Below are positions 10,298 through 43,735 of a stretch of DNA of 64,000 nucleotides, piece by piece. The stretch lies in assembly GCA_002633185.1 (NCBI GenBank), contig NWBM01000003.1:190732-254731 (forward strand). Reading direction: 5' to 3'. The stretch comes from Lachnospiraceae bacterium Phil5 (GTDB taxonomy: Bacteria; Bacillota; Clostridia; TANB77; CAG-508). The notes beneath the pieces were generated by a model. That model made no database searches, was not told the origin of the DNA, and was given only the letters and a program-made list of their open reading frames with translations. A program made the translations under genes and the position numbers. The number at the start of each line of letters is the position of its first letter. Positions within the stretch are counted from its first letter, which is position 1.

Positions 10298-10304
10298 TTC
10301 GACA
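10298..10304 (-). promoter_or_regulatory. Candidate Spo0A box (TGTCGAA) upstream of VirB4-like cassette
   Basis: TTCGACA on plus strand; about 20 bp upstream of a TTGACA element reading toward the cassette. Confidence 0.4.
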
Positions 10305-10350
10305 TTATTCGCATTTTTATAATTAATAAATTTAATTATTTATAGTTAAT

Positions 10351-10386
10351 AAAAAAATTTGCGTCGGAAAAATCCAACGCAAATTT
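10351..10386 (-). terminator. Rho-independent terminator of the candidate ncRNA
   Basis: 13-bp stem with one G.U, followed by a U-tract on minus strand. Confidence 0.85.
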
Positions 10387-10751
10387 TAGTAAAGCTAATA
10401 TTAATCTTCAGCTAAAACTAATATATATAATTAATAACCTAATATACATTACTGTATAAATAAGCTATTTCACCACACATATTAATCAGTTGCTTGACTA
10501 TTAATACATAACTAATAGCTATATTCATCCACATGGGACTATTAATAACCACTAGGATATATAAGAATAATCGTAACTCGAATAAATTACCTATAATTTA
10601 ACCATAAATTATTATAGCTTACATACAAATAATTTACTCTTCATCTCTGCAAAATATAGACCTAAAATATTAAGCCTATATTTCACTTTGACCGAATATT
10701 AAAAATCTTTCAACTTTTAATACTCTTGGTTAAACTAATATTAACCTTACA
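10351..10751 (-). ncRNA. Candidate structured non-coding RNA, about 400 nt
   Basis: Minus-strand promoter TTGAAT-18-TATAAT (10787-10758), no ORF of 60 aa or more, series of hairpins, and a strong terminator AAATTTGCGTTGG-ATTTTT-CCGACGCAAATTT + U-tract at 10386-10351. Confidence 0.6.
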
Positions 10752-10788
10752 AAATTTATTATAATCATTTTAATTTTTTTTATTCAAA

Positions 10789-10850
10789 AATTTTTAGGGA
10801 CACCTCCAAAAAATATTTTTAAGATGTTTTTTGGAGGTGTCCCTAAAAAT
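10789..10850 (-). repeat. GGGACACCTCC family palindrome (full copy) immediately after gyrB stop
   Basis: AGGGACACCTCCAAAAAA...TTTTTTGGAGGTGTCCCT; probably also acts as gyrB terminator. Confidence 0.85.
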
Positions 10851-10851
10851 A

Positions 10852-12804
<1,953 letters not shown>

Positions 12805-13879
12805 CTATATCTTTTGATTAATTTTTCCACTTTTTACATTATATACTTTAAAATTTAAATTTTCAACATTTATTTTTTCAGTACATGTAATTATAACCTG
12901 TGTATCCCTAATATTTCTTAAAAAATTTATTCTTCTTTTTTCATCTAATTCAGACATAAAATCATCTAATAATAATATTGGATTTTCCCCTATTTCATCT
13001 TTTACAACTTGAAGCTCAGACATTTTTAAAGATAGAATTGCTGTTCTATGTTGACCTTGAGACCCATAAACATTTACTAAATTATTATTTATATAAATAT
13101 TAAAATCATCTCTATGAATTCCCTTAGTTGTATATCCTTTTAAAATATCTAATTTTTTATTATCTTTTAATTTTTTTAAAAATTCTTCTTTATTTGTAAA
13201 ATCTGAAATATATTCTATTTTAATATCTTCATTATTTTCTGTAATAATATTATGCACATTTTTTATTTTTTCTTTTAGTTTATTTATGAATTCAAATCTG
13301 TATTTAAAAACCCCTTCTGCATATTCTGAAATTTTTTCATCCCAGATTTCTAAAAGTTCATCAGATTTATTTTCAAATTTAATTTGTTTTAAATAATTAT
13401 TCCTTTGTTCTAAAGCTTTTAAATACATATTTAAAATATAAATATAATTTGGTCTAATTTGTCCAATAAAAATATCTAAAAATCTTCTTCTACCTGCTGG
13501 TCCATTTTTTAAAATACTAATATCATCTGGAGTAAAAATAACTATATGAATATTTCCTAAAAGATCACTTAATTTTTTTATTTTTACTCCATTTAAATAA
13601 ATATCTTTTTTTTCAGTTAAATCAATTTTTATTTTTCCATCTCTATCTGATTTTGAAAATTCTGCTTCAATTTTTGCAAAATCTTTATCGAATTTTATAA
13701 GTTCTTTATCTTTATTTGTTCTAAAAGACTTTCCGAATTGCTGTTAAAAAAATTGATTCTAATATATTTGTTTTTCCTTGGGCATTATCTCCATAAATTA
13801 CATTAATATTTTTATTAAATTCTAAATTTAATTCTTCATAATTCCTAAAATTCTGTAATTTCAAATTAGTTATCAACAT
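12805..13879 (-). pseudogene. recF: RecF, interrupted by a +1 frameshift near 13737
   Basis: N-terminal MLITNLKLQNFRNYEELNLEFNKNINVIYGDNAQGKTNILESIFLTA then frame change to FGKSFRTNKDKELIKF...; C-terminal LLLDDFMSELDEKRR. Only the C-terminal 207 aa appear in the ORF track. Confidence 0.85.
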
Positions 13880-13909
13880 ATTGTGCCTCATCTGTGGATA
13901 ACTCTTCCA

Positions 13910-43684: not shown

Positions 43685-43735
43685 TTTTTTGGGACACCTC
43701 CAAAAAAAATATTTTTTGGAGGTGTCCCAAAAAAT
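43685..43735. repeat. GGGACACCTCC family palindrome (full copy) after M14 peptidase gene
   Basis: TTTTTTGGGACACCTCCAAAAAAAATATTTTTTGGAGGTGTCCCAAAAAAT. Confidence 0.9.

Follow-up and report, generated by a model that had tools for sequence, protein, structure and literature searches.

A predicted structured RNA beside gyrB

The window analysed here is a 64,000-nucleotide stretch of the genome of Lachnospiraceae bacterium Phil5 (contig NWBM01000003.1, positions 190,732 to 254,731). On its minus strand, at 10387-10751, we found a predicted structured noncoding RNA (ncRNA) of ca 365 nucleotides (nt) with its own terminator 3' of it. The RNA is located between gyrB (10852-12768) and a VirB4-like cassette (from 10236 down). 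The site is composed of a promoter-like sequence, ca 365 nt poor in open reading frames (ORFs) and a strong terminator. The structured body extends over 10388-10750 of the minus strand, from the 5' strand of the closing stem (P1) to its 3' strand (P1'). This extent is supported by a covariance model (R1), by the fold energy and by covariation in an alignment of homologues (A1). The intrinsic terminator, a hairpin with a T-run, occupies 10351-10387 on the same strand. It is conserved, as a hairpin below -8 kcal/mol is found at most 25 nt from P1' in 67 of the 68 homologues described below. The original prediction, made from the letters of this DNA alone, had placed here ca 400 nt lacking any sizeable ORF, followed by a strong intrinsic terminator. 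Both are present.

The minimum free energy of the window RNA is -146 kcal/mol on the minus strand, versus -79.4 +/- 5.5 kcal/mol for 100 dinucleotide shuffles (z = -12.2). Values of z from -5 to -13 were obtained with the homologues. The GC content is 24%. The median length of sense-strand ORFs within the RNA is 37 amino acids (aa) over the 68 homologues, and the RNA lengths are free modulo 3. Because only short ORFs are found and the lengths do not keep a reading frame, a protein-coding gene was ruled out.

Covariation supports a closed multi-branched fold

Alignment A1 contains 25 homologues and was folded using RNAalifold. The consensus has 108 pairs, 70 of which show at least one two-sided compensatory change. 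Standard pairs fill 97.2% of the pair cells, compared with a mean of 84.8% after shuffling and with 36-43% when the partners are slid by 1-3 columns. None of five covariation measures was reached by any of 500 shuffles. Covariation in homologues, the kind of evidence called for along with the original prediction, is decisive for a conserved structure. A covariance model, R1, comprises 373 positions and 129 pairs. The window RNA scores 319.7 bits with R1, its sequence being part of the seed, and divergent homologues outside the training set score 109-261 bits.

The fold is made of the long closing stem P1, the hairpins P2, P3 and P4, a branched P5 and a very long P6; the terminator lies outside it. 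P1 has 18 base pairs (bp) and closes the entire fold (5' strand 10733-10750, 3' strand 10389-10406). Two-sided changes are observed in 7 of its 18 pairs and 98% of its cells are paired. P2 (10694-10725) is a 14-bp hairpin with two-sided changes in 11 pairs. P3 (10649-10686) has 16 bp in the window, and 13 of its 14 consensus pairs change on both sides. P4/P4b (10580-10639), of 16 and 7 bp, was defined from the R1 consensus structure, and 5 of the 6 pairs at the base of P4 show two-sided changes. P5/P5b/P5c (10496-10572) corresponds to helices 5-9 of A1 and carries a conserved internal loop around UAGUCC...GGAUGAAU. P6a/P6/P6b (10410-10494), helices 10-12 of A1, is the most conserved part. All these elements are on the minus strand. 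Six hairpins had been proposed in the original prediction. Three of them are conserved helices, namely GAGTATTAAAA/TTTTAATATTC (P2), AAATATAGGC/GTCTATATTT (P3) and TATAC/GTATA (P6b). In the other three (GGTTAA/TTAACC, TAAATTATT/AATAATTTA and CTATTA/TAATAG), the strands had been wrongly partnered and belong to P1, P4, P5 and the pseudoknot.

This 3-bp pseudoknot links J1/2 to J4/5, the AAC strand at 10729-10731 pairing with the GUU strand at 10575-10577. The two strands are paired in 88% of cells. We counted 15 compensatory cells versus 2.6 in shuffles, and none of 2000 shuffles was as high. It is by far the best such triple among the unpaired segments. The test is free of model bias since R1, to which alignment A3 was fitted, holds P1-P6 and not the pseudoknot. 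P6b is capped by a GUAA tetraloop (10449-10452). Among the 68 homologues, the loop was scored as GNRA automatically in 65, and two of the three exceptions have GUAA by alignment. The GNRA loop and the covarying pseudoknot suggest a compact tertiary fold. Columns 302 and 479 of A3 (R1 alignment), a position of J4/5-P5 and one of the J5/6 region, also show strong non-Watson-Crick covariation (AG, UU, CA), perhaps reflecting a tertiary contact.

Homologues were found in one family only

The homologue set combines the hits of a DNA search with those obtained through gyrB in named genomes and by a profile run over all loci. It contains 68 distinct sequences with a mean pairwise identity of 70% and a P1-P1' core of 353-455 nt. 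The DNA search of 59 related genomes gave clear homologues in ca 25 genomes of the window's family, while four further families of the order yielded no homologue. Distribution was then followed with R2, a P6-arm model of 85 nt whose strict filters can miss weak matches. Of the 59 family genomes listed, 43 gave a match, always as a single copy, and the remaining families of the order gave none. Across a class-wide set of 293 genomes, matches were confined to the window's family. In total, ca 340 genomes of the order and class outside the family gave no homologue. Named carriers are uncultured gut Clostridia, among them Candidatus Merdicola faecigallinarum.

The genomic position is also conserved. 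The RNA is convergent with gyrB in all 70 loci containing both, some genomes being counted twice, and terminators lie between the two genes. Where the cassette is also present, the RNA is divergent from it and the order is gyrB-RNA-cassette-gyrA. The RNA unit of the window (10340-10790) is inverted compared with all 70 of these loci. It has the same direction as gyrB and as the cassette, which lies downstream of it. A palindromic repeat is observed at the gyrB side of this unit, at 10791-10851.

The predicted promoter is of the forespore type

The original prediction had proposed a promoter, TTGAAT-18-TATAAT. A promoter-like site is indeed found there, as TTGAATA-N17-TATAATA at 10757-10787 on the minus strand, with its -10 box ending ca 6 nt before the RNA. 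In the homologues it is not an ordinary sigma-70 promoter; the pattern is of the forespore sigma-G/F type. With the RNA 5' ends of the 68 sequences brought into register, the pattern is G[ACT]ATA-N17-[C/T]ATA[A/C]TA. In the -35 box, the G is present in 67 sequences and the A and T in all 68; TTGACA never occurs. The -10 box usually starts with C and has its final A in all 68. The spacer is 17 nt in 63 homologues, and a G is found three bases upstream of the -10 box in 38.

The forespore consensus of Bacillus subtilis is, in detail, GHATR-N17/18-CATNHTA. In Clostridioides difficile, the sigma-F and sigma-G consensus motifs are similar to one another and to their B. subtilis counterparts (PMC3789822). 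A G upstream of the -10 box marks sigma-F and an A downstream marks sigma-G, spoVT having both (PMC3789822). By these marks, the promoters of the present RNA bear the sigma-G sign in all 68 homologues and the sigma-F sign in 38.

A matrix was trained on the RNA promoters and run on upstream regions of other genes in the same genomes. Upstream regions of spoVT were above threshold in 11 of 26 cases, and G[ACT]ATA-N17/18-A[TC]A[AC]TA can be read in nearly all of them. For gpr, 4 of 23 regions passed, and none of 163 upstream regions of housekeeping ORFs did. The sigma-F gene spoIIR is preceded by TGTATA-N17-AATA[AC]TT. sigG and genes of small acid-soluble spore proteins (SASPs) are present in most relatives. 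Because the promoter pattern is shared with spoVT and, less clearly, with gpr, and absent from the housekeeping upstream regions, forespore-type transcription of the RNA, by sigma-G and possibly also sigma-F, is well supported though unproved.

Taken with the lack of an Rfam match (see below), the covariation, the conserved promoter and terminator and the single-copy orthologues across the family argue strongly for what the original prediction had put forward: a novel, independently transcribed structured ncRNA, here of ca 370-400 nt.

Comparison with known RNAs

No family of Rfam 15 matches the RNA regions of the window or of the homologous loci L021, L030 and L107 at gathering score, as the original prediction had expected of a new RNA. 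A permissive scan of the window gave sub-threshold matches only, mostly on two terminator-like hairpins and none above chance. The same kind of scan of L107 gave no match up to E = 5. Given these scans, RNase P, tmRNA, SRP and 6S RNA, whose signatures had already been reported as lacking, were rejected, as were introns and riboswitches. BLAST of phage and plasmid records gave no match to the RNA, and a phage or plasmid origin was rejected on this basis. We found no description of this RNA in the literature searched. The RNA therefore appears to define a family of its own, new among large structured RNAs, whose distinctive trait is the putative forespore promoter.

Two forespore RNAs are among the closest parallels. 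Bvs196 of Bacillus velezensis, a homologue of S357/S547, is a structured RNA transcribed on its own up to a terminator and controlled by the forespore factors sigma-F and sigma-G (PMC9147052); the same traits are predicted from sequence for the present RNA. Bvs196 differs by description, being restricted to Bacillus, 294 nt long and located between hinT and ecsA. In contrast, the present RNA is at the gyrB/gyrA locus and has a multi-branched pseudoknotted fold. CsfG is a forespore RNA under sigma-F and sigma-G (PMC8216469, PMC9147052), a control that the promoter predicts for the present RNA. CsfG has C-rich regions like RoxS and FsrA (PMC8216469), whereas none is evident in A1, which sets the two RNAs apart by description. 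Bvs196 and CsfG are precedents for structured RNAs of the forespore.

The raiA motif RNA is also a structured clostridial ncRNA, and its disruption reportedly affects sporulation (work cited in PMC12286853). It is 205 nt long, and the Rfam scans gave no raiA match to the present RNA, insofar as Rfam 15 includes raiA. The present RNA is smaller than OLE, ROOL and GOLLD. Like it, these are large multi-helix structured ncRNAs, and they form defined three-dimensional folds (PMC12286853). Their topology differs from that of the present RNA, which has no Rfam match to those of them included in Rfam 15 and no phage match. Finally, the same approach was applied to the same habitat in a survey of human microbiomes, which predicted thousands of structured-RNA candidates of 27-219 bp (Fremin and Bhatt 2021; PMC8040213). 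A fragment of the present RNA could be among them.

A putative forespore RNA acting in trans

We propose that the locus is probably the gene of an ornate ncRNA of ca 365 nt that is transcribed in the forespore and, once folded, acts in trans and not as the leader of a neighbouring gene, most likely within an RNA-protein particle. RNA polymerase directed by a sigma factor of the forespore, sigma-G and probably to some extent sigma-F, would initiate ca 6 nt past the -10 box, and the intrinsic terminator would end transcription. The RNA would adopt the closed multi-branched fold, with stem P1, the five arms P2-P6 and the J1/2-J4/5 pseudoknot, the GNRA loop presumably docking elsewhere in the fold. 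The folded RNA would then act in trans in the developing spore, most likely bound to protein. The fold is shown by covariation, and sequence comparison likewise shows the promoter type, the conservation, the synteny and the single copy. The forespore step is suggested by the promoter comparison. Action in trans is suggested by the orientation of the gene, its own terminators and its single copy. A protein partner and a role in spore properties may be supposed.

The mode of action is where the main competing explanation arises. A forespore regulatory small RNA could, in the manner of CsfG or Bvs196, work chiefly through base pairing with mRNAs. These precedents share the predicted timing. However, conservation is observed in the helices, junctions, pseudoknot and tetraloop, which points to tertiary structure more than to a free seed, and A1 lacks a C-rich unpaired region of the CsfG/RoxS/FsrA kind. 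We consider base pairing as the main activity unlikely.

A structured ncRNA made in growing cells by a housekeeping sigma factor, unrelated to sporulation, would agree with the window itself, where TATAAT is a perfect sigma-A -10 box and the RNA is intact while the sigG frame of the genome is interrupted. This explanation is nevertheless improbable in view of the homologues: their -35 box is G[ACT]ATA with invariant A and T and never TTGACA, their -10 box always ends in A, and the pattern is found at spoVT but in none of the 163 housekeeping regions.

Regulation in cis has still less in its favor. The RNA of the window is upstream of the cassette and codirectional with it, as a leader or riboswitch would be, and elsewhere it is convergent with gyrB, as an antisense regulator would be. 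In the 70 comparable loci, however, the RNA always faces away from the cassette, which excludes a leader or riboswitch role for these genes. Its own terminator precedes gyrB in 67 of 68 homologues, and in the window the terminator parts the RNA from the cassette. Orientation and terminators thus led us to discard both cis roles as very improbable. A chance spacer or a decayed gene is practically out of the question, for although hairpins are easily drawn in sequence of such low GC content, z is -12 against dinucleotide shuffles, the promoter, terminator and synteny are conserved family-wide, and the compensatory changes in 70 pairs refute it.

Several observations weigh against a forespore RNA. 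We had expected the SASP promoters of the same genomes to match that of the RNA exactly. They read AGTTTA-N17-ACATNATA, with equal spacing but a different -35 box, and do not pass the matrix threshold; the sigma-G consensus is therefore not uniform in these genomes. In the window's own genome, the reading frames of sigG, sigE and spoIIR are interrupted (L238 718-1494 and 2432-3115; L235). recF is also split in the window (12805-13891). These interruptions may be either assembly indels or real sporulation decay. Ca 16 of the 59 family genomes have no RNA. Some RNA-less relatives (G003, G006, G009 and G015) keep sigG, spoVT and SASP genes, so that the RNA is dispensable for sporulation. Across relatives, its presence does not strictly follow that of sporulation genes.

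If its transcript is confirmed, the RNA would be a new player in sporulation. Few large structured bacterial RNAs are known, and for most of them the condition under which they act is not. In the present case, the promoter points to when and where to look, in the forespore. The RNA also suggests that ornate RNAs take part in the spore development of endospore formers outside Bacillus. The model, the structure and the 68 sequences supply a testable new RNA family.

The VirB4-like cassette and other features

The cassette (5905-10236, minus strand) is composed of four genes encoding a 198-aa protein, a TraG/VirB4-like ATPase, a MinD/ParA-like ATPase and a 242-aa protein. Two of the proteins have no confident Pfam match. 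The original prediction had seen an orphan ATPase cassette here. On the contrary, nearly every sampled member of the family has it between gyrB and gyrA, whether the RNA is there or not. Since 19 loci lacking the RNA retain it, either in that position or downstream of gyrB, the cassette is more broadly distributed at this site than the RNA. A Spo0A-box-like TGTCGAA (10298-10304 on the minus strand in the window) precedes the cassette in 40 of 48 loci, frequently as tandem copies immediately 5' of a TTGACA -35 box. These boxes suggest that the cassette may be controlled by sporulation.

We tentatively raise a broader scenario, which is possible but doubtful. The RNA would belong to a class of ornate RNA not described before, synthesized exclusively in the forespore and packaged in the spore, with a structural or ribonucleoprotein function there. 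Together with the Spo0A-boxed cassette, it would form an RNA-plus-secretion-ATPase sporulation locus near the origin in this uncultured family of gut Clostridia.

A dispersed intergenic repeat containing ACACCTCCAAAAA has 19 near-matches in the window versus 3.3 expected, in places as an inverted pair. Copies are located at 1661, 10800-10840, 43694-43725, 45576, 49500, 54219 and 55607, and also in L193 and L238. Finally, a protein with a Dockerin type I domain is encoded near gyrA (1647-3092, plus strand), a hint of cellulosome-like polysaccharide use.
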